NCBI GenBank assembly: GCA_030698625.1
Contig: JAUYMS010000037.1
Coordinates: 1-55,769 of the forward strand
DNA: 55,769 bases
Direction of reading: 5' to 3'
DNA from: Candidatus Omnitrophota bacterium
GTDB lineage: Bacteria; Omnitrophota; Omnitrophia; Omnitrophales; Aquincolibacteriaceae
The translations under genes were made by a program, and so were the position numbers. Positions 19,001 through 36,803 of the stretch are shown here, piece by piece. Every line of letters starts with the position of its first letter. The stretch's first letter is position 1. A model generated the notes under the pieces. It did no database searches, was not told where the DNA came from, and was given only the letters and a program-made list of their open reading frames with translations.

Positions 19001-19882
19001 ATGACCCATTTAGAGCGTTTAGAAAGCCAATCGGTCTATATTTTAAGAGAGGCCTACGCCCATTTTAAGAGTATGGCCATGCTGTGGTCCGTCGGCAAAG
19101 ACAGCACAGTGCTCCTCTGGCTTGCCCGCAAGGCCTTTTTAGGCCACGTGCCGTTTCCGCTGGTGCATATCGATACCGCCTTTAAAATTCCGGAGATGAT
19201 TGAATACCGCGACAAGCTAGCCCTAGAGTGGAAGTTGAACATGGTCTATGGCCAGAACGAACAAGCGCTTAAGGAAAAAAGGACTTATCCGGATGGTGCA
19301 CTGAGCCGTGTGGAGTGCTGTAAGGCCCTTAAGACGGATGCCTTGAGAAATACACTTGCCGGGACGTGGACACGCTATCGCATGGACCACGAGAAGAAAA
19401 CGTATGTGGTCGACGAAAACAAAGAACCCTACACGGGTGTGATCGTCGGTGTCCGGGCCGACGAAGAAGGGAGCCGGTCGAAGGAACGCTATTTTTCACC
19501 CCGCGATAAGCGGAGCGACTGGGATGTCGGCGACCAACCTCCAGAACTCTGGAATCAATTTAAGACAGATTTTGCTCCCGGAACTCATATCCGGGTTCAT
19601 CCTTTGCTGGATTGGACAGAACTCGATATTTGGGAGTATATCCAAAAAGAGGGAATCCCCGTTGTGCCCCTTTATTTCGATCAAGGAAAAGGCGAGCGCT
19701 ATCGCTCTCTGGGCTGCTATCCCTGCACTTTTCCGGTCGAGTCCCCGGCGAAAAGCATCAAAGATATTATTGCGGAGCTTAAGACGGGAAAGTTTAAGAA
19801 TATTGCAGAGAGAAGCGGACGCGCTCAGGATGCCGAAGACGGCGGCGGCCTCGAGACCTTGCGACGCGGCGGGTACATGTAA
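19001..19882 (+). CDS. cysD: Sulfate adenylyltransferase subunit 2
   Basis: 293 residues. The PP-loop motif is [17 protein letters not shown], preceded by the family's opening [16 protein letters not shown], and RRGGYM closes the protein as in other CysD. The [20 protein letters not shown] region matches the family. With CysN it makes adenosine 5'-phosphosulfate from sulfate and ATP, driven by GTP. The stop overlaps the cysN start (TAATG). The product can feed sulfur assimilation or sulfation; a frameshifted sulfotransferase gene is present at 54146. Confidence 0.95.
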
Positions 19883-21684
19883 TGAAGTCGGCTGAAACCC
19901 CCAAAATGAATATCGTGATTGTCGGTCACGTCGACCACGGGAAGTCGACGATAATCGGAAGGTTGCTCGCGGATACCGGTTCCTTGCCCGACGGGAAACT
20001 GGCGCAGGTGCGGGCGGAATGTAAGAGGACGGCAAAACCCTTTGAGTACGCCTTTCTCCTCGATGCGCTTAAGGACGAACAAGAACAGGGAATTACTATC
20101 GACACGGCTCGGTGCTTCTTCAAAAGTAAGAAACGCGAATACATTATTATTGATGCCCCGGGGCATATCGAGTTTCTGAAGAACATGATTTCGGGTGCCG
20201 CACGTGCGGAGGCCGCTCTCCTGGTCATTGATGCAGCAGAAGGCATTAGAGAGAATTCCAAGCGCCACGGTTATCTCCTCTCCATGCTGGGGATCCGGCA
20301 GTTGGCGGTTGTCGTCAATAAGATGGACCTCGTGGGCTATAAGGCGGCGGTTTTTCAGAAGATCAAGAAAGATTACGCAAGATTCCTGAAAGAAGTCGGG
20401 ATTTCGGCCCACACCTTTGTTCCGGTATCCGGCCGTGAAGGTGACAACATTATGAAACCGTCGATGAACTTAAAGTGGTTCAAAGGCCCTTCGATATTGA
20501 GTGTGCTCGACGAGTTTAAGAAGGCCCCGGGAATTGAAGACAAGGCCTTCCGCTTTCCCGTACAAGGGGTCTACCGGTTTACGGAAGAAGGAGACGATCG
20601 TAGACTAGTCGTGGGCCGGGTTGAGTCCGGAAAGGTATCTGTAGGGGACCCGGTTGTGTTTCTCCCTTCGCAAAAACGTTCGACGATTCAATCGATCGAG
20701 GCGTTTCACGCGCCCAAGCGAAAGACGGCTTATGCCGGCGTTTCGACGTCCTTTACGTTGCAAGAACAGGTGTATGTCAACCGCGGTGAGGTGATGTGTA
20801 AGGACGGCGACGCGCTTCCCGAAGTGAGCACCCTTCTGCGAGTGGAGCTTTTCTGGATGGGGAAGAGCCCGTTAGAGTTCGGGCGCGAATACAAGCTCAA
20901 GCTTGCTACGGCCAGCACTCCGGTGCACTTAAAGAAAATAGTGCGCGTTATCGACGCCTCGGATCTTAAAAAGCAAAACAAGAAGAAAATCGAACGGCAT
21001 GATGTTGCGCAATGCATCCTGGACTGTGCTCATCCGATCGCCTTTGATCTGACCGAAGTTCTGGAGGCGACCGGCCGGTTTGTGATTGTGGATAAATACG
21101 ACGTCGCCGGCGGCGGCATTGTTGTCGAGGCCCTTAAAGACGAACAGGAGGCGATACGGGAGCAGGTGAAGGTGCGCGAGGAAAAGTGGGATTTTAGTGT
21201 TGTGGACCCGCTCGAAAGAGCAACCCGATACGGGCACAAACCGCAGCTCGTACTTCTGACCGGAAAGGTCGGAGTAGACAAAAAGACGATCGCCAAAGAT
21301 TTTGACAAGGCGCTATTCGACATGGGGGCGAGGTCCTATTTCCTCGGTATCGGAAACCTTCTGCGCGGACTTAATTCGGACATTGAGACCGATAAAATTG
21401 CCCGTCACGAGCATGCGCGGCGGTTAGGAGAGGTTGCGCATCTCTTCATGGACGCAGGCCTTATTGTGGTTGCGACAGCCAGCAATCTCAACGATGAAGA
21501 GTTGCGCGGCATCAAGCAGGCGACGAACATGGATGACGTACTCATTGTGAACGTGGGGAAAAACGAATTCCGTCACAGCGTCGTCGATTTAAACCTACCG
21601 GAAAAAACAAATCCCGCCAAAAACGTGGAAAAAATATTTGAACTTCTGTATGAGCGCAAAGTCCTTTTCGGGAAGACTGCGTAA
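19882..21684 (+). CDS. cysN: Sulfate adenylyltransferase subunit 1 with a degenerate APS-kinase-like domain
   Basis: 600 residues. The GTPase part is intact: G1 GHVDHGKS (15-22), G3 DAPGH and G4 NKMD, then the EF-Tu-like barrels. From residue 454 an APS kinase domain follows as in NodQ/CysNC, but its P-loop reads GKVGVDKKT (461-469) where active kinases have GLSGAGKST, and the usual DGDNVRHGL substrate motif appears as [10 protein letters not shown]. The fold is kept ([18 protein letters not shown]), yet ATP binding looks lost. It should still activate sulfate; making PAPS would need another kinase. Confidence 0.9.
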
Positions 21685-23998: not shown

Positions 23999-25036
23999 AT
24001 GACATTTCTTCGGATTTTTATCTATCTCATACTGATTTTGGGAGTCGCTGAGCAGGCACCGGCTGGGGTACCCGTCGCGCTTTCACGTCACAATGACGAC
24101 ATTGACGCAACCCTTCGCGGTGAGATGGCCGATGTTAATGAGCGGCTGATTGAAAGCATTCGGGATAACGATCCGTCCGTAATGCTGGACGTCTTTATGC
24201 AGGAGATACGCGACCGCAATAAGACGGAGAAGGGGCTGGAGACTCTATACGCCCAACTCGGAAAGCATATTGGCGACAAGCCGATACACTTATTGCACGA
24301 ATTTCATGTGACGACTCAGGCTATCGACAAGGGAATCGTCTCGATTGCGGCGGAAACGCCTCACCCTTTTATCATGCAGGTCGAGGCCATGAGTGATGAG
24401 ATGTATATTTCGCTCTATGTTGTTGAGGGGCCGATGCGGGATTTGATGCTGGGGTTTATCCATATGAAGGTTGACGGGCGGTGGCAGCTGCACGGTTTTC
24501 ATACGGGTTCTTATACGGTTGCGGGAAAAACCGCCTTTGATTGGATTCGGGAAGGCAAGGAATTCCTCGAGAAAGGTCAGAGTCTGCCTGCTGCACTCAG
24601 GCTTCAGATTGCGAGCACCTGTATTCGTCCCGTTCCCTTTATGAAGTACGAAGAAGAAGCGGGGTATCTGGAGCTCGCCGAAGGCGTAAAGAAAGCAGTT
24701 GAAGGCAGGTTTCAATTCCCGGGAAAACTAACGGAAGTCGAAAGTGCGCCGGAGCTTTACTCCATTCAATACCACTTTCTTGAAGGGAGTCTGATGCCCC
24801 TGGTGAACTACATCACGACGTATTCGCTCGACGATCAAAAGACCTTACAGGACGAAGTCAATGCCATGACCCCGGTTCTGGTGGACATTTTCCCCGGTAT
24901 CGATCAAGGCACTCGTTTTATTCTCTACAATATATTCACCGAAAGGCCTTTGGATCCCACCCACAGAAAATATGAAAGCCGGGGCATCGGTGTCAAAGTT
25001 GGAGAAAAGGTCGAACTTATCCGCCCGCAGACATAG
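23999..25036 (+). CDS. Exported protein of unknown function
   Basis: 345 residues with a signal peptide (FLRIFIYLILILGVAEQAPA). No known domain is recognised. The central part is beta-rich and aromatic (MYISLYVVEGPMRDLMLGFI, VDGRWQLHGFHTGSYTVAGK), followed by helices resembling a short TPR (EGKEFLEKGQSLPAALRLQI). It resembles small-molecule-binding envelope proteins only in general form. It lies 113 bases upstream of the giant protein gene in the same direction, so it may share transcription. Confidence 0.75.
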   Translation: MTFLRIFIYLILILGVAEQAPAGVPVALSRHNDDIDATLRGEMADVNERLIESIRDNDPSVMLDVFMQEIRDRNKTEKGLETLYAQLGKHIGDKPIHLLHEFHVTTQAIDKGIVSIAAETPHPFIMQVEAMSDEMYISLYVVEGPMRDLMLGFIHMKVDGRWQLHGFHTGSYTVAGKTAFDWIREGKEFLEKGQSLPAALRLQIASTCIRPVPFMKYEEEAGYLELAEGVKKAVEGRFQFPGKLTEVESAPELYSIQYHFLEGSLMPLVNYITTYSLDDQKTLQDEVNAMTPVLVDIFPGIDQGTRFILYNIFTERPLDPTHRKYESRGIGVKVGEKVELIRPQT

Positions 25037-25149: not shown

Positions 25150-28100
25150 GTGTTCGAATCCAAGGGGGAGATGAGGTCGTGCTTGCAGCGCTTCAAGGTC
25201 AGACTAAAAAACTACCGCAGTCCGTTAGCATCCGTTTTGGCCATCCTCTTATCTGTTTCATTTCCGCTTAATGAAAGTCTCGCCTTAAATAATAACGACC
25301 CCCTTTCCGTTCCGGAATCTCTCGGCTCCGTCCAGGAATCCTATACCGGCAATTCCGATAAGACCGTGTTCGTGATCCAGGATGCGCATGATTCTCTGGA
25401 AGCGCAGGAAAATATCGCCGCCTTGATTCATCACCTGGTTGAACATCGCGACGTAAAAACCGTCCTTGAGGAAGGTTATGAGGGCTCAGTGCCGAGTGAC
25501 GCCTATTTCGGATTTATCAAGGATCCCGCAATTAAAGAAAGAGTCTCCTATTTTCTCATGGACCAATTACGTATCAGCGGCGCGGAGTACGCACACATTA
25601 ATAGAAAAAAGAACTTTGAGCTTATCGGTGCTGACAACATCGACCTGCATGTCCGAAATGTGGAATCCTATCGGGTTCTGTATCAGAAAAGGGGAGAAAT
25701 TGAACAGGATCTCGGCGAGATTGAAACCCGCATCAAGAGGCTTGTGGATTCGCATCTTCCGAAAGAAGTCAAACACTGGATCAAACTGAAACAAAAGTCG
25801 CAGGAAGGCAAACTAAGTCTGCTTTCCTATTTGCAGCAGATGACGGCCTTATCACCCACTTCCAGGCCGGGTGAGAGTATTCGGACCCTTCTGCGGGCGG
25901 TAAAGCAGAATGACGAGGGCTCACTCAGCGAGGCAAGGGGCATTGATCCTATTAGGTTATTCAAGGAGATCGCAACATTTGAGAACTCCTTTGCAAACAC
26001 ACTACTCGGCAGTCCCCGGGACCGGGAGATCCTCCGGCATTATAAGGAAGTGCGGCTCTTGAAACGCCTGAGTGATTTGGAGATTACCGCAGAAGAATAC
26101 GCGGCCGTTAAGGAGACCCTCATTGATTTGAACACCAAAAAATTAGCCGCTTTTATCGCCGGGCAGACGAAGCGGTCGTTGCTTTTGTCCAAGCAGTGGG
26201 AGGCGGGTATTCAAAATGCCGTGCGATTTTACGAATTGGCGCAGCAAAGAGATGATGCGATTGAGCGGGCGCTCGAAACGTTTGAGCATCGACGGACCGC
26301 TCTTGTCTTCGGGGGTTTTCATAAAGACAGGATTACAGCCATTCTTAGGAAGAAAGGAATCTCCTATTACGTCATCGCCGTGAATATTACAAGAGAGAGT
26401 CCGCGCCATCAGAAGTATTATAAAAAGCTCATGCAAGTTGGATATGACGATATAAGCCTTCCGGGATTGGTTACCACGGCCACGCAACAGCCCACGTGGC
26501 CGGCCATGACGTCCCGCAGCGCAGACAGAGATACCGAGTTTCGATCCCTGATGAACCGCGTCGTGCTCATCGCGGAGCGGCTTCAGTCTATCGGTCTACC
26601 GTTATCACCGCAACAGCTGGGGCTCGCCCTTCGCTCCGAACTTAGGGAATCGTCTGAGGATGAAATCCGAAACCGCATCCGCTCCAATCTCATTGTGCTT
26701 TACGGACGGCGAGCCGGACTAGCCGCTTACGAGGACTTGTCGCAGTTTTTGAGAAAAGCGTATGCTCAAAGGCCGACAACACGCATGGACTCCGCAGGCG
26801 CGGAGCCCCACCCCTATGATCAGAGTGATGCGGTCTTCATTACTTATCCGGATTCTATTACCGATGGCAAAGAAGGGTTGCCTTTCCAGGCCCTCAGCCG
26901 ATTTGCGGCCGACCATCTCAAAGGGCTTTTTAACCGCATGCATATTCTGCCATTTTTTGCGTGGGATGCCGACCGGGGCTTCTCGGTTCTCAACTATCGC
27001 GAAGTCGATCCTAGGTTCGGTAGCTGGGATGATATTCGTGCGTTGCAACAGAATTTCGATTTGGCTTTCGATCTGGTCGCCAATCACGCATCGATTGATA
27101 ATCCGTGGATTCAAGCGGCCCTCATTCATCATGGGCTTGCCGACAACGATCTGCGCAGAGAAACGTACGCGCAATACAAAGATTTCGTGAAGGCCTATCA
27201 TGATGAAGACAAGCCGTCCGATGATGAAATGGATAAGGTCGTACATTTCAGAACGTCGCCGTTACTGTCACGGTATTATGTCATCGAAAAGGAGGGGGAC
27301 TTAACCGCGACCTTTGACCGTCCCGCCGACGATGAGGCGGTACTTGTTTATGGAGGCTGGGTTTGGACGACCTACAGCCGGCCGGATACTCCCGACGGAC
27401 GCGTGGGAACGCGGCAAATCGATCTCAACTACACCAATCCGGCGGTACTGATTGAGATGCTGAAAGTTCTTCGCTTTTATTCAACTCAAGGTGCCTCTAT
27501 TTTCCGGATCGATTCCGCGCCAATTCTATGGAAGGAGCCCGGAAAATTTTCACTGCATGAGCCGGAAACACGAAAATTACTTCAAATAATCAACGACGCC
27601 CTTACGCTGATGAATCCCAATATCATGACTATCGCGGAAATCAAAGACGAGCCTGCGACGGAGATGACTTATCTTGGGGAAGGTTCACGCAAGGAGTCGG
27701 ACCTCATCTATCAATTTTCGTCTTATCCGATGTCCGTCTATACGATCTTGAAAGGCGATGCACGATATTTTCGCGAATGGGTTCCTCGGTTAGAGAAGGC
27801 AGCGGGGCGGCAACTGCTGCTTCTTGCCGGAAGTCATGACGGGTTTACGGTCAGGCCGTTGGAGGGCCCGCTTGATGGGACCTCACCGCTGATACCCGAA
27901 GACGAGCGGCGGTGGCTGATCAAGCGATTACGTGAAGAGCATAGAGCGTTTGCCAATAAACGCATGGTAGACGGCGTCGATGTCGTGCGCGAAGTTGTAA
28001 CCACTCCCTGGGACGCGATCAATAAGCCGGATTCAAACGAAGCCCAGAGTCTGCAAGTAGACCGTTATGTGGCCTCCCTGGCGCTGGGCGTCGGTTTGCG

Positions 28101-30909
28101 CGGAATCCCCACGATTTACTACAATGGTCTCTTCGGTGTATCGATGACAACCGATGGTTTAGCGGATAACCGTGAATCAAACCGGCAGCCCTTGGATGAA
28201 GCATGGGTTCGTGACCAATTGCAGGATTCTGAGAGCCGTGCGTATCAGGTTTATCATCATATTCAGGAAATACTCGGGAAACGCGCTAAAGAATCCGCAA
28301 TGCATCCCTCCGGCCCGCCGGAGGTCGTCGTGGACGTGGCCAATGATCAGGTCGCCGCTTTGCTTCTGCGATCACAGGACGAATCCGAGAGCATTGTCAG
28401 TTTGGTCAACGTCTCTGCCGAGGAGCAGACCGTAACTTTAGACTTAGTGGATCTGGAGATGGATCAAACGGATCTATATGAACTGATAGCCGATGAGGTG
28501 ATTCCCCAGCCCAAAATGGGAAAACAGACTGTCGTCCTGAAGCCTTATCAGGTTGCATGGGTTAAGCATGTCAAAATTGAAAACCCCGTCATTGAAGCCC
28601 TCAAGCCGGTTGCCGTTCCCATGGACGGATCTTCGGCGTACGCTCAGGCAAAAAGGCAATTTACGGAACAACTGGAAGAAAAGGTGAAGGCGCGTACGGC
28701 GGTCTTGCAGCCCACAAACTTTGATCCGGACGACGATTCGGATCTGCTCGCGGAGGAATTTTATAAGGTATTTCAGGATGCCGCCAATGACACCTATCGG
28801 TGGATAAAAACCGTGGATCAGAGCGGCCATTTCTTCGCAGACAACGAAAAATTTCACAAGCTCATCGAAGGGCTCGTCATTATCGGTTACGGCGGTATCG
28901 GTCGAAAGATGTTTTACGGAGGGTCTTCGGACATCGATTGGATCTTTATTTTCCCAGAATACATTGACGAGCCGGGGGACCTCGAAGACTTTCAACTCCT
29001 GGAGAATATCAAAGAAGAGTTCTGGGACATCATCAAACGTGCCGTACCCAATAACCAAAAAAGAGATATTCACGCCGTGAGTAAAGTCAGCACGCTAGGC
29101 AAGGCCTTCGGGGCGGGAGATTTTACTCCCATGGATACGGCGATTCTTGCACATACGGATCTTGTTGCTGCGACTTACATTGCCGGCAACTCGGAGCTCT
29201 ACGGCCGATACCGATCCGCCGTCGATGAAGGCATTCGCACTCGCGTGCCGTATGACGAAGTCCAACTAATGAATTATTTCATGAGACGTGTTCACCACCA
29301 TGCCTTCCCGGATGGGATGATCGATCTCAAGCTGATGAAGGGAGGATTTACCGAGATCGCTTTTCTTTATCACCTCGCTCATGCCCATGCGGGATTCCCC
29401 CGCATGACCTTTGAAGAATCGCTCAGTTATCTCCAGGATGAAGGAATTATCAGCCAGTTGCGAGGAGAAGGGATCATCACCGCCGAAGATGCCGAAATCG
29501 TCATTGAGACGTTGCGCCTGCTGACTTTCATTCGCCTCAGCCACGGCGGTATTCGTCTTCAGAATAACGAATGGCTTCAATATGTAGAGTCTGCGGCCAT
29601 CATCCTGGATTCCGGGAAAATTTTCACTTACGAGGAGCTTAATACCCGATTTATGGAGGTGGTAGCGAAGGGCGAGAGATTTTTTCTGAAGACCAGCATG
29701 GGAATCGATGAGAAGACGCTCGATATCCTCCTGGAACGCCCATGGAGTTCTCCGGAAGAATTTCGTAAGGCGGCACATATTCATCATGAGAACACTTACA
29801 TCGATAACTTCGTCCTGTGGCAAACTCGGAGCGCAGATTTTTTATTTGAAACCTTTTTCCGTGAGCTAAATCGCCGACACGGCAATCTGAAACGGGCCGA
29901 CTGGCTTACGCTTATGGCGCTATCAGGCAATGCGAGTTCGCCGCCGGTTATATTGCAGGAGATGCTTACGTATGGCCATTTGCCCCGATTCCGCGAGCAA
30001 GTTGCCCTAGTGGCCAAAAATCACAATGCCGATACCGGCACGTTGCGTGAAATCGCCTGGAGTCCGGGAGTGAAGCCGCTCTATCGCGGGCAGGCGGTGG
30101 AGAATCTTTATGGCCGCGCACGTGCGCTGGGAAGCGTTCAAGAAGAGTCAGAGCGGCCGGCAATCATAAGAACCGAATCAGGATTAACGGATCCGGACAC
30201 GACTTTGCTGCTCCTCGATGATGTGTTTCAGAGATTGCCGCGGCACTATAGAACCGCGGACGGTACCGACGACAGTGTCTACGAGAGTTTCAGACAGCGC
30301 ATGCATAATCCTACGTCCGCCATTTTTAAAAAACGCTCCGAACTGCGACTCAGCTCGTCTGACATCGACACGGCCGAGTCGAAAACCGTCTCCGACGTCT
30401 TTGGGCAGCTAAAAGGCAGATTTACAATTTTTGTTAATCTGGAGGATGTCCGGCAGCTTACCGGCGAGCAATTCCGTATTGATTATGAAATTCCGCCCCT
30501 CCTCAGCAAGAATATCAGGTACGTATTCTATAATGACCGGGGAAATCTTGATCCGAAAAGACGATTTGTAATTGAACAGATGCAGTCACAGTTCGGCCAC
30601 GACAGGATTGAGATTACCGCCGACCTTCTTATCGATACCGTGGATCGAGCGAAAGTAGGGAAGTGGCTTCACGTTGCACGCACCGACAAGAGTGTGGCCG
30701 CTGCCGCGCGTCTTGATAAAACGGTTGAAATCTACCGGTTCCGGTATATATTTGACGAAACCGGTCTCGTCCCGGCGGCGATTCTTTTGGCAGACGGCGG
30801 AATTCAGGATTCTGAAAACCGGGTCATTGATCTCTCGATGATTCCTCACTCGATCACCCTGGAGGTGCAGGAGTTTCTTGCCAGGCGCGTCTTTGAGCGT
30901 GCGGCATAA
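25150..30909 (+). CDS. Giant secreted multidomain protein: ChaN-like + GH13 (sucrose-phosphorylase-like) + GlnE-like nucleotidyltransferase
   Basis: 1919 residues. A signal or anchor segment (about 25-45) is followed by a ChaN/TraB-like region (about 70-420; VIQDAHDSLEAQENIAALIH, LEEGYEGS, ALVFGGFHKDRI). Residues about 558-1140 are GH13, closest in style to sucrose phosphorylase: region I DLVANH (641-646), nucleophile Asp 788 in FRIDSAP, acid/base Glu 830 in TIAEI, Asp 897 in GSHDG. Residues about 1170-1640 hold a nucleotidyltransferase with GSSDIDW (1258-1264) and LKLMKGGFTEIAFL, as in glutamine synthetase adenylyltransferase. The last 280 residues are unassigned. All visible catalytic residues are kept. 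The start is uncertain: GTG 25150, ATG 25171 and TTG 25183 are all possible. Export of a nucleotidyltransferase is odd. Confidence 0.85.
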   Translation: MFESKGEMRSCLQRFKVRLKNYRSPLASVLAILLSVSFPLNESLALNNNDPLSVPESLGSVQESYTGNSDKTVFVIQDAHDSLEAQENIAALIHHLVEHRDVKTVLEEGYEGSVPSDAYFGFIKDPAIKERVSYFLMDQLRISGAEYAHINRKKNFELIGADNIDLHVRNVESYRVLYQKRGEIEQDLGEIETRIKRLVDSHLPKEVKHWIKLKQKSQEGKLSLLSYLQQMTALSPTSRPGESIRTLLRAVKQNDEGSLSEARGIDPIRLFKEIATFENSFANTLLGSPRDREILRHYKEVRLLKRLSDLEITAEEYAAVKETLIDLNTKKLAAFIAGQTKRSLLLSKQWEAGIQNAVRFYELAQQRDDAIERALETFEHRRTALVFGGFHKDRITAILRKKGISYYVIAVNITRESPRHQKYYKKLMQVGYDDISLPGLVTTATQQPTWPAMTSRSADRDTEFRSLMNRVVLIAERLQSIGLPLSPQQLGLALRSELRESSEDEIRNRIRSNLIVLYGRRAGLAAYEDLSQFLRKAYAQRPTTRMDSAGAEPHPYDQSDAVFITYPDSITDGKEGLPFQALSRFAADHLKGLFNRMHILPFFAWDADRGFSVLNYREVDPRFGSWDDIRALQQNFDLAFDLVANHASIDNPWIQAALIHHGLADNDLRRETYAQYKDFVKAYHDEDKPSDDEMDKVVHFRTSPLLSRYYVIEKEGDLTATFDRPADDEAVLVYGGWVWTTYSRPDTPDGRVGTRQIDLNYTNPAVLIEMLKVLRFYSTQGASIFRIDSAPILWKEPGKFSLHEPETRKLLQIINDALTLMNPNIMTIAEIKDEPATEMTYLGEGSRKESDLIYQFSSYPMSVYTILKGDARYFREWVPRLEKAAGRQLLLLAGSHDGFTVRPLEGPLDGTSPLIPEDERRWLIKRLREEHRAFANKRMVDGVDVVREVVTTPWDAINKPDSNEAQSLQVDRYVASLALGVGLRGIPTIYYNGLFGVSMTTDGLADNRESNRQPLDEAWVRDQLQDSESRAYQVYHHIQEILGKRAKESAMHPSGPPEVVVDVANDQVAALLLRSQDESESIVSLVNVSAEEQTVTLDLVDLEMDQTDLYELIADEVIPQPKMGKQTVVLKPYQVAWVKHVKIENPVIEALKPVAVPMDGSSAYAQAKRQFTEQLEEKVKARTAVLQPTNFDPDDDSDLLAEEFYKVFQDAANDTYRWIKTVDQSGHFFADNEKFHKLIEGLVIIGYGGIGRKMFYGGSSDIDWIFIFPEYIDEPGDLEDFQLLENIKEEFWDIIKRAVPNNQKRDIHAVSKVSTLGKAFGAGDFTPMDTAILAHTDLVAATYIAGNSELYGRYRSAVDEGIRTRVPYDEVQLMNYFMRRVHHHAFPDGMIDLKLMKGGFTEIAFLYHLAHAHAGFPRMTFEESLSYLQDEGIISQLRGEGIITAEDAEIVIETLRLLTFIRLSHGGIRLQNNEWLQYVESAAIILDSGKIFTYEELNTRFMEVVAKGERFFLKTSMGIDEKTLDILLERPWSSPEEFRKAAHIHHENTYIDNFVLWQTRSADFLFETFFRELNRRHGNLKRADWLTLMALSGNASSPPVILQEMLTYGHLPRFREQVALVAKNHNADTGTLREIAWSPGVKPLYRGQAVENLYGRARALGSVQEESERPAIIRTESGLTDPDTTLLLLDDVFQRLPRHYRTADGTDDSVYESFRQRMHNPTSAIFKKRSELRLSSSDIDTAESKTVSDVFGQLKGRFTIFVNLEDVRQLTGEQFRIDYEIPPLLSKNIRYVFYNDRGNLDPKRRFVIEQMQSQFGHDRIEITADLLIDTVDRAKVGKWLHVARTDKSVAAAARLDKTVEIYRFRYIFDETGLVPAAILLADGGIQDSENRVIDLSMIPHSITLEVQEFLARRVFERAA

Positions 30910-31084: not shown

Positions 31085-32734
31085 ATGAACGCAGCAGAAC
31101 TATTCATTAAGTGCCTAGAAGCTGAGGGCGTAAAAGCCATCTTTGGTGTGCCTGGCGAAGAGAATGCCGATTTCGTCATGGCCCTCGACAAATCTCCCAT
31201 TCAATTGATTCTAACGCGCCATGAACAGGGGGCTGCGTTTATGGCGGAGGTGCATGGGCGTTTGACCGGCGAAGCCGGAGTGTGTTTGGGTACGCTCGGT
31301 CCGGGTGCGGCGAATCTTGTGACCGGAGTTGCCGACGCCAATATGGACCATTCTCCGGTGATTGTTATCACAGGGCAGGCTGACAGCGAGCGCATGCACA
31401 AAGAGAGTCACCAGAACATGGATGTGGTAAGCATGTTCAAGCCCATTACGAAATGGGCGCATACTATTTATCATCCGAATAATGTACCCGAGGTAGTTCG
31501 GAAGGCCTTTAAACTGGCCACGACCGAAAAACCTGGGGCCTGCCATATTGAACTCCCTGAAGACATTGCAGCAATGAAAACCACCGGACAGCCGCTCGTT
31601 CCAAAGCGCGTGCGGCGACCCGTGCCGGCTGATAAAATTGTGGATCAAGCCTGGGAAGCGATCAAGACTGCAAAGCGCCCCATAATTCTTGCCGGCAACG
31701 GCACCATCCGTAAACGTGCGAGTAAACAATTGCGTCTTCTAGCGGAAAAGACGGGGATCGGTGTGGCTAGCACCTTTATGGGCAAAGGCTGTGTTGATCG
31801 CGATTCAGATCAATGCCTCTTCACCATCGGTCTTCAAGCGAAGGATCTTGTCACTTGCGTCGTTGATGCGGCAGACCTCGTGATTACTGTCGGTTATGAC
31901 ATGGTGGAATATCACCCCAGCTTGTGGAATCCCAAGGGAGATAAGAAAATCGTGCATATTGATTTTCTTCCTGCCGAAGTAGACGATCATTACCCGGTTG
32001 ATGTGGAGGTGGTCGGCGATTTGGCGCACACCTTATGGATGCTTAACGAGCGCGTTGATAAAGACGGAAGCCCCTCTTACGACCTCAATCATCAGCATTC
32101 GGCCCGCCAGCAAATGCTGGAAGACTTCGAGCAGTACAAGGACGACGATACGGAAGGGACCATCCGGCCTCAGAAGGTTTTGTGGGATGTCCGTCGGGCT
32201 CTCGGACCCCGCGATATTCTGCTTAGCGATGTGGGTGCCCATAAGATGTGGATCGCCCGTTATTACCAATGCAATGAACCCAACACGTGCCTCATTCCCA
32301 ATGGCTTCTGTTCGATGGGGTTTGCCCTTCCCGGCGCGATAGCGGCAAAAATGGCCTGTCCCGATCGGAATATTTTAGCCATATGCGGAGACGGCGGTTT
32401 TATGATGAACGTTCAAGAGATGGAGACGGCCAAGCGCACGAATCAGGACATCGTGGTCATGATTTGGGAAGATAAGAAGTACGGGCTGATTGAATGGAAG
32501 CAGCAAGGTCATTTCGGAAAGCACATTGACCTTAGTTTTGAGAACCCTGATTTTGTAAAGTTGGCCGATGCTTTTGGTTGGGGCGGAATGCGCGTTGATA
32601 ATTCACGCGATCTGGCAGGTGCGCTGGAAGCTGCTCTGAAGCAAAGCGGGCCGACGCTGATAAGCATACCCATCGATTATCGCGAAAATTATCTTCTGAG
32701 CAAACGATTGGGGCAGATCGCATGTCCGATCTAA
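31085..32734 (+). CDS. Thiamine-diphosphate enzyme, acetolactate-synthase-like; probable 2-oxoglutarate decarboxylase
   Basis: 549 residues. The N-terminal domain has the activating Glu (E47 in LTRHEQGAAFM), and GDG at 435-437 binds the cofactor magnesium. The usual Asn metal ligand after it is Glu 462 (WEDKKYG). Sequence style (FGVPGEEN, NMDVVSMFKPITKW) is like proteins labelled acetolactate synthase. In cyanobacteria a protein so labelled is a 2-oxoglutarate decarboxylase paired with succinic semialdehyde dehydrogenase. Here an aldehyde dehydrogenase overlaps it by 13 bases, and no small regulatory subunit is present, so that role is preferred. Acetolactate synthase or glyoxylate carboligase cannot be excluded. 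Confidence 0.75.
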   Translation: MNAAELFIKCLEAEGVKAIFGVPGEENADFVMALDKSPIQLILTRHEQGAAFMAEVHGRLTGEAGVCLGTLGPGAANLVTGVADANMDHSPVIVITGQADSERMHKESHQNMDVVSMFKPITKWAHTIYHPNNVPEVVRKAFKLATTEKPGACHIELPEDIAAMKTTGQPLVPKRVRRPVPADKIVDQAWEAIKTAKRPIILAGNGTIRKRASKQLRLLAEKTGIGVASTFMGKGCVDRDSDQCLFTIGLQAKDLVTCVVDAADLVITVGYDMVEYHPSLWNPKGDKKIVHIDFLPAEVDDHYPVDVEVVGDLAHTLWMLNERVDKDGSPSYDLNHQHSARQQMLEDFEQYKDDDTEGTIRPQKVLWDVRRALGPRDILLSDVGAHKMWIARYYQCNEPNTCLIPNGFCSMGFALPGAIAAKMACPDRNILAICGDGGFMMNVQEMETAKRTNQDIVVMIWEDKKYGLIEWKQQGHFGKHIDLSFENPDFVKLADAFGWGGMRVDNSRDLAGALEAALKQSGPTLISIPIDYRENYLLSKRLGQIACPI

Positions 32735-34179
32735 AGACTTCGGTGTTGAAGCAGAGCTATCCTTATTATCTTGCCAATAAGCCGGTTGCCGCCAACCAAG
32801 ACCTCAAGGTGATTGACAAATTTACCGGGGAAGTCGCTACGGAGGTAGCGCTTGCTGATGAAAAGGCTATTGATCAGGCGATCGCCAAGGCTGTTCGGGC
32901 GGTCGAACCTTTGCAGGCCATGTCGGCCTATGATCGGCAGGAAGTATTGCGGCATTGTCTGAAACGCTTCGAAGAAAGGCGGGAGGAGTTAGCCCTCAGC
33001 CTCTGCATCGAAGCCGGAAAACCCATTAAGGATGCCCGCGGAGAAGTAAGCCGTCTTATCGATACCTTTCGCGTGGCCTCGGAAGAAGCCGTTAGGCTCT
33101 ATGGGGAGGTCATGCCGCTCGATATCTCACTGAATACGCGCAATTATCGCGGTATGTGGAAGCGGGTGCCCATCGGCCCTTGCAGTTTTATATCACCGTT
33201 TAATTTTCCCCTGAATCTGGCGGCGCACAAAATTGCTCCCGCGGTTGCGGTCGGCTGCCCCTTTGTCTTGAAGCCGGCCAGTCTGACGCCGATTGGCGCG
33301 CTTGTGATTGGCGAGATTCTCGCTGAAACAAATTTGCCTGAGGGGGCGTTCTCGATTCTTCCCTGCCGTCGTGACGGCGCAGAACTTTTTACGACAGACG
33401 AGCGTTTTAAATTGTTGAGCTTTACGGGTTCTCCGAGCGTAGGTTGGGATCTCAAGGCGAAGGCGGGCAAGAAAAAAGTGGTGCTCGAATTGGGAGGCAA
33501 CGCTGCCGTCATCGTCGAACCCGATTCTGATTTGGATGACGTGACAAATCGTATTATGGTCGGCGCTTTTTATCAGTCGGGTCAAAGTTGCATCAGTGTG
33601 CAGCGCATCCTGATTCACTATAAAATTTATGATGAATTGCGCGACCGGCTCGTTGCCGCGGCCAGCAAGCTTGTTAAGGGAGATCCCAAGGATGAAAAAA
33701 CATTTATCGGTCCGATGATCGCTGAAAAAGAGGCGGACCGGCTTGAGTCATGGATCAATGAAGCGGTCGAGCGCGGGGCGAAACTCCTTTGCGGGGGATC
33801 CAGAGAAGGAACCATGATGGAAGCGACTCTCTTGGAAGATGTGCCTTCCGATGTCACGATTTCCAGTCAGGAGGCTTTCGGTCCTGTTGCCTGCTTGGCC
33901 AAGTACCGTGACTTCGATGATGCCCTGAATACGATTAATGAGAGCCGCTATGGGCTACAGGCCGGCGTCTTTACGCAAAATCTGTATAAAATGTACCGGG
34001 CCTGGGACCGACTCGACGTTGGCGGTGTTATCATCGGCGATGTCCCTTCGTGGCGCGTCGATAACATGCCTTATGGCGGGGTCAAAGACAGCGGCCTCGG
34101 CCGCGAAGGGGTTCGTTTCGCCATGCAAGATATGACTGAGATACGGCTCATGGTCGTGCGTGATCCCGCACCTAAATAA
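32722..34179 (+). CDS. NAD(P)-dependent aldehyde dehydrogenase, probable succinic semialdehyde dehydrogenase
   Basis: 485 residues, full length. It has FISPFNFPLNLAAHKIAPA, the cofactor-loop FTGSPSVGWDLKAKAG, the general-base Glu in LELGGN and the nucleophile Cys in QSGQSCIS, plus the closing PYGGVKDSGLGREG. It overlaps the upstream decarboxylase gene by 13 bases, so the pair is translationally coupled. Oxidation of succinic semialdehyde to succinate fits the context; non-phosphorylating glyceraldehyde 3-phosphate dehydrogenase is an alternative within the same superfamily. Confidence 0.85.
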   Translation: MSDLKTSVLKQSYPYYLANKPVAANQDLKVIDKFTGEVATEVALADEKAIDQAIAKAVRAVEPLQAMSAYDRQEVLRHCLKRFEERREELALSLCIEAGKPIKDARGEVSRLIDTFRVASEEAVRLYGEVMPLDISLNTRNYRGMWKRVPIGPCSFISPFNFPLNLAAHKIAPAVAVGCPFVLKPASLTPIGALVIGEILAETNLPEGAFSILPCRRDGAELFTTDERFKLLSFTGSPSVGWDLKAKAGKKKVVLELGGNAAVIVEPDSDLDDVTNRIMVGAFYQSGQSCISVQRILIHYKIYDELRDRLVAAASKLVKGDPKDEKTFIGPMIAEKEADRLESWINEAVERGAKLLCGGSREGTMMEATLLEDVPSDVTISSQEAFGPVACLAKYRDFDDALNTINESRYGLQAGVFTQNLYKMYRAWDRLDVGGVIIGDVPSWRVDNMPYGGVKDSGLGREGVRFAMQDMTEIRLMVVRDPAPK

Positions 34180-34209
34180 CACACTTGTGGTTAAGTGAGG
34201 AGGAAAGTG

Positions 34210-35577
34210 ATGACAAAAGTTGCGACTAAAGATCCTGCAGTGCAGAAAGAGCTCGCGTGCTTTATGACGGGATTGATCCGGCGTAATCCGGGCGAGACCG
34301 AATTCCACCAAGCCGTTCAGGAAGTCTCCGAAACGCTAATGCCATTTTATCTTCAACACGCGCAGTATCGTAAGGCCCAAGTCCTGGAAAGGATGACTGA
34401 ACCGGACCGCGTTATCATCTTTCGCGTCTCGTGGGTGGATGACGAGGGTAATCCGCGCGCCAATCGCGGTTACCGTGTTCAATTCAATAATTCCATCGGA
34501 CCGTACAAAGGGGGATTGCGTTTTCACCCTGACGTGACGCTGAGTGTTTTTAAATTTCTGGGTTTCGAACAGGTTTTCAAGAACAGCCTGACGACACTTC
34601 CCATGGGCGGCGCCAAGGGGGGTGCGAATTTTAATCCCAAAGGCAAATCCGACGGTGAAGTCATGCGTTTCTGCCAGTCCTTCATGACGGAACTCTCCAA
34701 GTACATCGGAAAGGATATTGATGTGCCTGCCGGCGACATCGGCGTTGGTGCCCGTGAAATCAGTTATATGTTTGGTCAATTCAAACGCATCCATAATGAA
34801 TACGGCGGAGTTTTGACGGGCAAGGGGCTCGCTTTTGGAGGAAGTTTGATACGCACTGAAGCGACCGGCTATGGGTGCGTTTACTTTCTCAATGAGATGC
34901 TGGCTTACGTCGGCGAATCCGTGAAGGGAAAGAAATGCCTGGTTTCGGGTTCCGGCAACGTGGCACAGTTTACTGCGGAAAAGATCATCGAACTCGGCGG
35001 TAAAGTGCTCACGCTTTCGGACTCCGCAGGCTACATCTATGACCCCGACGGCATTACTCGCGAAAAGCTCGAGTTCGTGAAGGAGTTGAAGAATGTCCGG
35101 CGAGGCCGCATCAGCGAATATGCGGGGAAATTCGGCTGCGAATACCATGAAGGCAAAACGCCGTGGCGCGTGCCCTGTGATATTGCGTTTCCGTGTGCGA
35201 CCCAAAACGAGATCAGCCTTGAAGACGCCAAAGCATTAATTGCTAATGGTGTGAAGGCCATTGCCGAGGGCGCCAACATGCCGACCGTAATCGAGGGAAC
35301 GCATGCGTTTCTCGAAGCCAAGGTGCTCTATGCTCCCAGCAAGGCCGCCAATGCGGGCGGGGTGGCTGTTTCCGGTTTGGAGCAAACACAGAACGCGATG
35401 AGGCTTTCCTGGAGTCGTGAGGAAGTCGATCACCGTCTTCTCGAGATCATGAAGAGCATTCACGGCAAATGCGTCGAATACGGACAGGAAGGCGATTATG
35501 TCAACTACGTCAAAGGCGCGAATATTGCAGGATTCATCAAAGTAGCTGATGCCATGATTGCATGCGGCATCGTTTAA
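34210..35577 (+). CDS. gdhA: Glutamate dehydrogenase (NADP-type)
   Basis: 455 residues from the ATG at 34210, preceded by GAGGAGG; a GTG five codons earlier lies inside that ribosome site and is rejected. Catalytic segment GGLRFHPDVTLSVFKFLGFE and PMGGAKGG, then the Rossmann part SGSGNVAQFTAEKI, match the hexameric bacterial enzyme (usually about 450). It interconverts glutamate and 2-oxoglutarate, so it can feed the enzyme encoded two genes upstream. It lies 30 bases after the aldehyde dehydrogenase stop. Confidence 0.95.
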   Translation: MTKVATKDPAVQKELACFMTGLIRRNPGETEFHQAVQEVSETLMPFYLQHAQYRKAQVLERMTEPDRVIIFRVSWVDDEGNPRANRGYRVQFNNSIGPYKGGLRFHPDVTLSVFKFLGFEQVFKNSLTTLPMGGAKGGANFNPKGKSDGEVMRFCQSFMTELSKYIGKDIDVPAGDIGVGAREISYMFGQFKRIHNEYGGVLTGKGLAFGGSLIRTEATGYGCVYFLNEMLAYVGESVKGKKCLVSGSGNVAQFTAEKIIELGGKVLTLSDSAGYIYDPDGITREKLEFVKELKNVRRGRISEYAGKFGCEYHEGKTPWRVPCDIAFPCATQNEISLEDAKALIANGVKAIAEGANMPTVIEGTHAFLEAKVLYAPSKAANAGGVAVSGLEQTQNAMRLSWSREEVDHRLLEIMKSIHGKCVEYGQEGDYVNYVKGANIAGFIKVADAMIACGIV

Positions 35578-35594
35578 CCCATGCATGAGGACCC

Positions 35595-36803
35595 ATGGCC
35601 GATTTTTACGAACGTAGTCTTAGCATGCATGAGCAGTTGCGCGGAAAGATCGGCGTTCATAGTAAGATCCCCATTAACAGCCATGACGACCTCTCTATAG
35701 CCTACACTCCGGGTGTAGCGCGTCCCTGTGAAGTCTTGGGGAAAGATCCTTCGAAAGCGCGCGAATTAACGATCAAGCGTAATACCGTTGCCGTTGTCAG
35801 TGACGGCTCGGCGGTTCTGGGGCTCGGCAATATTGGGCCTTATGGGGCCATTCCTGTTATGGAAGGCAAGGCATTGCTTTTCAAAGAATTCGCCGATATT
35901 GACGCCTGGCCGATTTGTCTGGATACTCAAGACACTCAAGAAATTATTGCCGCGGTACGGCATATCGCGCCTGTATTCGGCGGCATTAATTTAGAAGATA
36001 TTGCTGCTCCGCGATGCTTTGAAGTGGAAGCGGCCCTCCAGGATCTCGGCATTCCCGTATTTCACGACGATCAGCACGGTACGGCGATTGTACTCTTGGC
36101 CGCACTCTTGAATGCCGCAAAAGTTGTGGGGCGCAAGGTTACCGATATCCGTGTGGTCATCAATGGTGCGGGCGCAGCTGGCACCGCCATTGCAAATCTA
36201 TTACGGTGTGTCGGCCATGACCCTGCCGTATGCGCTCCCGTCAAAGACGTCATCGTTTGTGATTCCAAAGGCGTGATTCACTCCGGTAGAAAAGATCTCT
36301 CACCCGCTAAGGAAAAGCTGCTCAAATTCACCAATCGCAGCGGCCGTGAGGGGTCTTTGAGGGACGTCCTCGAAGGATGTGATGTCTTTATCGGCGTCAG
36401 CAAGGGAAACCTTCTTTCCGGCGAGGACATCAAACGTATGGCGGCTGACCCCATTGTGTTTGCGATGGCCAATCCGGAGCCTGAGATTATGCCTGATGAA
36501 GCCAGACAAGCAGGTGCCGCCGTTGTCGGAACGGGGCGAAGCGACTTCCCGAACCAGGTCAACAATGTCTTGGTCTTTCCGGGTATCTTCCGAGGGGCTC
36601 TGGATGCAGGTTCCCGTACGATCACCGATGCGATGAAGCTTGCCGCGGCTCATGCACTGGCCGATTGCGTCGAGCAGCCTGACTCCGATCACATCCTGCC
36701 GGATCCGCTCGACCGAAGTGTTGCCCCTAAAGTTGCCCGCGCGGTATCTGATGCCGCCGAAGCCGATACCCCGAATCAGACTTCATCTCCCGCCGGCAGA
36801 TAA
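35595..36803 (+). CDS. Malic enzyme (short form)
   Basis: 402 residues. It starts YERSLSMHEQLRGKIGVHSK and contains AYTPGVARPCEVL, the metal/substrate segment INLEDIAAPRCFEVE, DDQHGTAIV and a Rossmann GAGAAG motif. It lacks the phosphotransacetylase-like domain of long MaeB enzymes. It oxidatively decarboxylates malate to pyruvate with NAD or NADP. Eighteen bases after gdhA, it is the last gene of the operon. It faces isocitrate lyase and malate synthase, whose product is malate. Confidence 0.93.
   Translation: MADFYERSLSMHEQLRGKIGVHSKIPINSHDDLSIAYTPGVARPCEVLGKDPSKARELTIKRNTVAVVSDGSAVLGLGNIGPYGAIPVMEGKALLFKEFADIDAWPICLDTQDTQEIIAAVRHIAPVFGGINLEDIAAPRCFEVEAALQDLGIPVFHDDQHGTAIVLLAALLNAAKVVGRKVTDIRVVINGAGAAGTAIANLLRCVGHDPAVCAPVKDVIVCDSKGVIHSGRKDLSPAKEKLLKFTNRSGREGSLRDVLEGCDVFIGVSKGNLLSGEDIKRMAADPIVFAMANPEPEIMPDEARQAGAAVVGTGRSDFPNQVNNVLVFPGIFRGALDAGSRTITDAMKLAAAHALADCVEQPDSDHILPDPLDRSVAPKVARAVSDAAEADTPNQTSSPAGR

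Follow-up and report, generated by a model that had tools for sequence, protein, structure and literature searches.

The 1,919-residue protein encoded in the window (the whole stretch of 55,769 nucleotides analysed here) is, judging from its sequence, a small member of a huge exported Omnitrophota family with common front and end pieces. We give a probability of about 0.5 to the reading that these proteins are exported multi-enzyme polyproteins whose linker tags are recognised by a trans-acting factor that differs between lineages and is probably a processing protease. The chain would run in the order signal peptide, TIKI-type hydrolase head, tag, cargo, tag and alpha/beta tail ending in -AA, and the GH13 phosphorylase-like part and the GlnE-like nucleotidyltransferase would together form one cargo unit here (Table 1). 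Comparison of the related proteins establishes their anatomy, the placement of the linkers, the genome- and lineage-specific spelling of these and a constraint that acts on the protein and not on the DNA.

Table 1. Features of the 1,919-residue protein, with positions in the window and residue numbers (res) counted from the GTG start
Feature	Position	Strand	Basis
Whole ORF	25150..30909	+	1919 codons, GTG start; open as one frame in own genome
Signal peptide MRSCLQRFKVRLKNYRSPLASVLAILLSVSFPLNESLAL	25171..25287	+	Sequence; ~70 homologous heads with this N-terminal layout
TIKI/Ere/ChaN-superfamily head, res 52-435	25303..26454	+	D78, H80, E108, R367, H391 invariant; model pLDDT 88
Linker tag 1, RSELR, res 495-499	26632..26646	+	Between head and cargo
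GH13 domain, sucrose/glucosylglycerol-phosphorylase-like, res ~560-1137	26827..28560	+	D788/E830/D897 intact; Pfam, PDB matches
GlnE-like nucleotidyltransferase (candidate), res ~1185-1530	28702..29739	+	GSSDIDW 1258-1264, KGGFTEIAF 1397-1405; sub-threshold profile matches
Linker tag 2, RSELR, res 1729-1733	30334..30348	+	Between cargo and tail
Alpha/beta tail, res ~1757-1885, plus C-terminus ending ...ERAA	30418..30906	+	Iterated profile; model

The reading frame and its exported head

The frame described in the earlier note on this DNA is intact, and it is a single frame in the assembly of its genome (3.52 Mb) too. A fusion of separate genes through sequence error, which the note named as a possible refutation, is unlikely, as independent MAGs contain the same combination of head, linker and tail. 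A more likely true start than the GTG is the in-frame ATG at 25171, behind AAGGGGGAG, since other family members begin with MRR, MRK or MKR; the product would then have 1912 aa. Directly upstream of the giant (23999-25036, +) is a 345-aa predicted exported protein with no family match, and just downstream (31085-36803, +) acetolactate synthase, aldehyde dehydrogenase (lactaldehyde-type), NADP glutamate dehydrogenase and malic enzyme follow in close succession. Also present in the window are a CysN/CysC-type fusion of sulfate adenylyltransferase subunit 1 with an APS-kinase part (19882-21684, +) and, at the start, a group II intron RNA (138-212, +; RF00029, 49 bits).

The signal segment reported at the N-terminus is there, and a basic, hydrophobic signal peptide of the ...YAxxxYA(S/P) type (n-region, h-region, then YAS, YAQ or AxA) opens nearly all of the homologous heads. 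Export is therefore well supported by predicted signal peptides of the cleavable type. It may also be asked whether the giants are cytoplasmic or lie on the inner face of the membrane, with the hydrophobic start serving only as an anchor, which would suit cargo types that need cytoplasmic cofactors. We consider this very improbable given the typical cleavable signal peptides on nearly all heads and the fact that ChaN/TIKI heads are usually exported.

The ChaN-like assignment of the part that follows was correct at the superfamily level. Of the 63 homologous heads, 4 match Pfam PF04187 ('Tiki superfamily, ChaN'), the best at E 1.6e-5, and the best PDB neighbours of a model built from the alignment of the 63 heads are of the Ere family (3b55 and EreC), at weak E-values of 0.007-0.02 and low TM. 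Searches with the head profile against PDB sequences gave no match and a search of a viral fold library gave no useful one. D78, H80 and E108 occur in all 63 aligned heads and H391 in 62 of 62, and R367 is likewise invariant. The active site of TIKI enzymes consists of two His and two Glu (PMC6254334), and the corresponding set is found in the head as D78-x-H80, E108 and H391. The spacing of 28 residues from H80 to E108 equals that of H85-E113 in Bcr135 and of H3902-E3930 in VvRRSP (PMC6254334). Hence the head has in common with the TIKI superfamily (Ere esterases, ChaN, Tiki and the VvRRSP endopeptidase; PMC6254334) the D-x-H motif, the Glu 28 residues past the His and the late His, but most heads here have D instead of E as the first acidic residue and carry a long helical insertion between the core strands. 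From this active-site set, its spacing and its invariance, the head is probably an active hydrolase.

A common chassis with different cargo

Residues ~45-450 match about 40 loci (~41) of the same genome, with open frames of up to 14,273 aa. The frames of these loci add up to ~231,000 aa or 19.7% of the assembly, a sum that takes in incomplete and a few short loci. Similar head-bearing loci are present in other genomes of the window's family, and Candidatus Omnitrophota MAGs are the source of every related head. The tail domain was found by iterated profile in 21 giants, where it lies ~40-80 aa, and in most cases ~40-55 aa, before an -[AS]A end; its alpha/beta model is confident, and a PDB fold search with it gave no clear match. 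As defined here, a chassis giant has a signal peptide and a TIKI head, R[SA]ExR both after the head and before the tail, and an alpha/beta tail with an -[AS]A end, all of which the 1,919-residue protein has. An open frame of 35,113 aa in a relative from this order has a head of the same type (G041:C37, near 183543-184979, -), and the examined part of the frame (L146, L147) contains a stretch of N as well as RSE[AVM]R tags. In the window's own genome, one head gene (G000:C32, L050, 2311-6271) is broken by a frame change and is apparently a decayed giant.

Head and tail are common to the giants, whereas the middle varies. The sets of cargo encountered include methyltransferase, M48 peptidase and ABC1 kinase in one; helicase, histidine phosphatase and P-loop protein in another; FAD oxidoreductase and glycosyltransferases in a third; PLP enzyme, alpha/beta hydrolase, PrmA, histidine-kinase ATPase and CAAX protease in a fourth; and PfkB, NUDIX, inositol phosphatase and HAD in a fifth. 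Dozens of paralogues per genome in this Omnitrophota order share one chassis and differ in what it carries.

For the cargo of the window's giant, the catalytic triad lies exactly where the earlier note put it (D788 in FRIDSA, E830 in IAEIKDE, D897 in GSHDGF). The sucrose-phosphorylase-like call holds in that, as far as sequence goes, the GH13 identity is certain, with a Pfam match at E 5.8e-18 and PDB matches to glucosylglycerol and sucrose phosphorylases at E 3e-27. The score against NCBIfam TIGR03852 (sucrose phosphorylase equivalog, GH13_18) is 96.5 bits for a cut-off of 334.4. Thus the domain resembles the GH13_18 sucrose/glucosylglycerol phosphorylases in fold and triad but scores under the equivalog cut-off and is embedded in an exported chain.

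The GlnE call is moderately supported. In its favour, GSSDIDW is intact at residue 1258, the GSSDID and KxGGxxEIxF motifs of GlnE adenylyltransferase occur in the same order, and two NCBIfam GlnE models match collinearly (E 7e-4 and 0.004). On the other side, every match lies below its cut-off, unlike that of a GlnE adenylyltransferase proper: the E 7e-4 match has 17.7 bits for a cut-off of 487, and Pfam GlnE gives E 0.24 with 11.2 bits for a cut-off of 24. The AlphaFold model of this part, which has no relatives for an alignment, is mostly below pLDDT 50. No relatives of it were found in 384 Omnitrophota genomes, and there is no GlnE match elsewhere in its own genome.

The earlier note proposed that the chain may couple glucoside phosphorolysis to nucleotidylation of a sugar or protein. 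The GH13 and GlnE-like parts do sit in one unit with no tag between them and with catalytic residues kept. Yet their combination occurs in no other giant found, and the head and tail also accompany unrelated cargo, the head being part of the chassis of dozens of giants. A dedicated fusion of this kind is very improbable. Nor do the three parts travel together, because no other giant found has GH13 with GlnE, the matches of the GH13 part in relatives lie in ordinary frames of 549-1136 aa, and the GlnE-like part has no relatives in the 384 Omnitrophota genomes; it is the head, linker and tail that travel together instead.

The linker pentapeptide and its spelling

The RSELR joints at 495 and 1729 were absent from the earlier reading of the protein. 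In 12 giants, 75 RSELR were observed for 0.2 expected, and at the DNA level the pattern has 310 matches in the window's own genome as against 20 for the reversed control. In other MAGs, 72 loci contain 274 copies of R[SA]E[LMVI]R and none of the reversed motif. The median spacing of tags is 286 aa, and their flanks are disorder-prone, returning to baseline by ~30 aa. Only 1 tag falls inside a Pfam domain where 10.7 are expected (P 2e-4; 23 domains in nine giants). It should be noted that tag sites are not independent, so that p-values are indicative. Units neatly enclosed by tags include PALP (2583-2877, between tags at 2498 and 2896), NUDIX and histidine phosphatase. Some neighbouring recognisable domains have no tag between them, GH13 and GlnE here included, and a few head-bearing giants lack any known tag.

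Residue 4 of the tag is specific to the genome. It is L in 65 of the 68 R[SA]ExR of the window's own genome and also in VFQY, V or M in JAHFHF, M in JAHFHB, A in MHFR and often T in JAQTOZ. The agreement of this residue between tags of different giants is 0.43 within a genome versus 0.17 between genomes (p 2e-8), while the flanking positions have at most a slight within-genome effect (+1: 0.110 versus 0.089). This pattern is not the outcome of a recent family expansion, because two heads from one genome are as far apart as two from different genomes (p-distance 0.594 within, 0.585 between). It is not due to recent copying of DNA either, since synonymous codons at the tag have no effect matching that of residue 4 and DNA conservation is confined to the motif with its 15 bases. 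Recent copying within the genome was ruled out also by the 58 of 65 own motif copies that have distinct 15-mers, the heads being equally distant within and between genomes. A DNA-level element was ruled out in the same way: conservation does not extend beyond the 15 bases, and tags of one genome do not have their synonymous positions in common.

All of the window's family shows enrichment of the RSExR pattern, as do several families of its order, and the other classes sampled do not; heads are more widespread than the pattern. Where heads occur with a different tag, the spellings are mutually exclusive between head-sharing families. In families f7 and f4 (five genomes), A[AS]SLG replaces RSExR, with 23 copies in 26.8 kaa and 6 in 14.2 kaa, respectively, compared with 1 in 229 kaa of RSExR giants. 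In f2 (one genome, 7 giants) the replacement is [SA]GFG[AV], with 20 copies in 15.0 kaa, 0 for scrambled forms and 1 in 229 kaa of RSExR giants. Genome-wide counts against control are 57 versus 9 for the GFG pattern in f2 and, for the SLG pattern, 115 versus 23 in G039, 83 versus 48 in G036 and 98 versus 55 in G038. An enrichment of FERIA in G039 was ruled out as a linker tag, as it comes from a ~40-aa tandem helical repeat domain in one giant (L132, G039:C16). Each of the three groups has its first tag ~100 aa past the last catalytic His of the head (medians 103, 120 and 93), with disorder-prone flanks. The spelling of the pentapeptide is set by lineage, as R[SA]ExR with a genome-specific x, as A[AS]SLG or as [SA]GFG[AV].

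The Ser codons of the tag are strongly biased (294 TCN to 20 AGY, for a background of 31.6% AGY), and therefore the RSExR copies share DNA ancestry. This common ancestry would be expected if the tags were relics of gene growth, left where units were shuffled with the linker attached, and had no reader. But conservation stops exactly at the 15 bases, genome specificity is seen at residue 4 and not at the synonymous positions, which are diverse, and three unrelated spellings occupy the same anatomical place. Since neutral relics would not remain so exact, we regard this origin as quite improbable. Two stretches in linkers of the JAFGHI giant (L078/L052-L053), LTLTLSPEGRGMGEGDP and SKLKVQSLKLDQL, resemble translated intergenic repeats, hinting that linkers grew from intergenic DNA.

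A proposed reader of the tags and its meaning

The simplest explanation of the tag data is a reader that would act at the protein level on all giants of a genome. Such a trans-acting reader would recognise the tag and would most likely be a processing protease, freeing the cargo units after export. The head itself may be an endopeptidase of this pathway. Its columns, compared across genomes, contain little genome-specific signal of their own, for which reason it is not obviously the reader of the tag; a head reading its tag in cis is likewise unsupported. Of the Arg-specific peptidase families, C11 and C25 had no match in 58 relatives, where it may be added that the C25 control was also silent everywhere.

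The tag may instead be read and not cut, serving a lineage-specific factor (for export, folding or scaffolding) as its docking or checkpoint site, with the giant working as one chain (e.g. a surface coat or an assembly line). The same data on a trans reader apply to it, three chemically very different spellings would fit interchangeable docking peptides as well as protease sites, and published models (PMC10066038) view Omnitrophota giants as surface structures. Against it, the tags lie regularly between units in exposed linkers, as release sites would, and a single long chain needs no tag at almost every joint. We judge docking unlikely, though a serious contender to processing.

If the tags are cut, the freed enzymes would be of a cytoplasmic type, needing ATP, SAM, FAD or PLP, and would act in another cell or its debris. 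As such cargo needs cytoplasmic cofactors, action inside a partner cell would be the natural reading. This fits reports that Omnitrophota depend on a host and that attached cells have elevated levels of giant-protein peptides (PMC10066038).

Giant Omnitrophota proteins with mixed domains are already known (PMC10066038, PMC12419801), among them the 39,678-aa protein of a giant ORF in V. archaeovorus (Seymour et al. 2023, PMC10066038). The giants of PMC10066038 are similar to ours in phylum, in being giant and exported and in having few recognisable domains, but the available part of that paper does not describe a shared head and tail, a linker tag or a lineage-specific spelling. The gigantic proteins of PMC12419801 (Lipocone, kinase/receiver, peptidase and methylase domains) likewise mix cytoplasmic-type and envelope-directed enzymes and are predicted to act on prey, but a TIKI head, a tail and a linker pentapeptide are not described in the corresponding part of that source. 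Within the portions of the Omnitrophota giant-protein literature covered, neither the linker code with its RSELR nor the common TIKI head or the tail is mentioned; a prior mention of these is possible in the 2023 giant-gene preprint cited by PMC12057145.

Multi-effector autoprocessing proteins of the MARTX type are also long exported chains with several releasable effector domains. Their RTX repeats and cysteine-protease domain are unmatched here (GH13 was the only Pfam domain found), and the tag code and the chassis differ. To our knowledge, no use of polyproteins on such a scale has been described in bacteria. We would put at slightly worse than even odds the wider claim of a bacterial polyprotein system, in which whole lineages package cytoplasmic-type enzymes in exported giants of one chassis, the joints are marked by a lineage-specific pentapeptide 'dialect' for a co-evolving processing factor, and one gene delivers many enzymes outside the cell.

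Shared head, shared tail and a readable joint code provide a way to parse the opaque giant genes of Omnitrophota into units. The code marks where each enzyme starts and ends, so that cargo can be cloned and assayed piece by piece, and it leads one to expect a factor with a specificity that changes from lineage to lineage. Cutting at the joints would mean that a single gene serves to make and export many enzymes, which would bear directly on how these host-dependent nanobacteria feed or attack.
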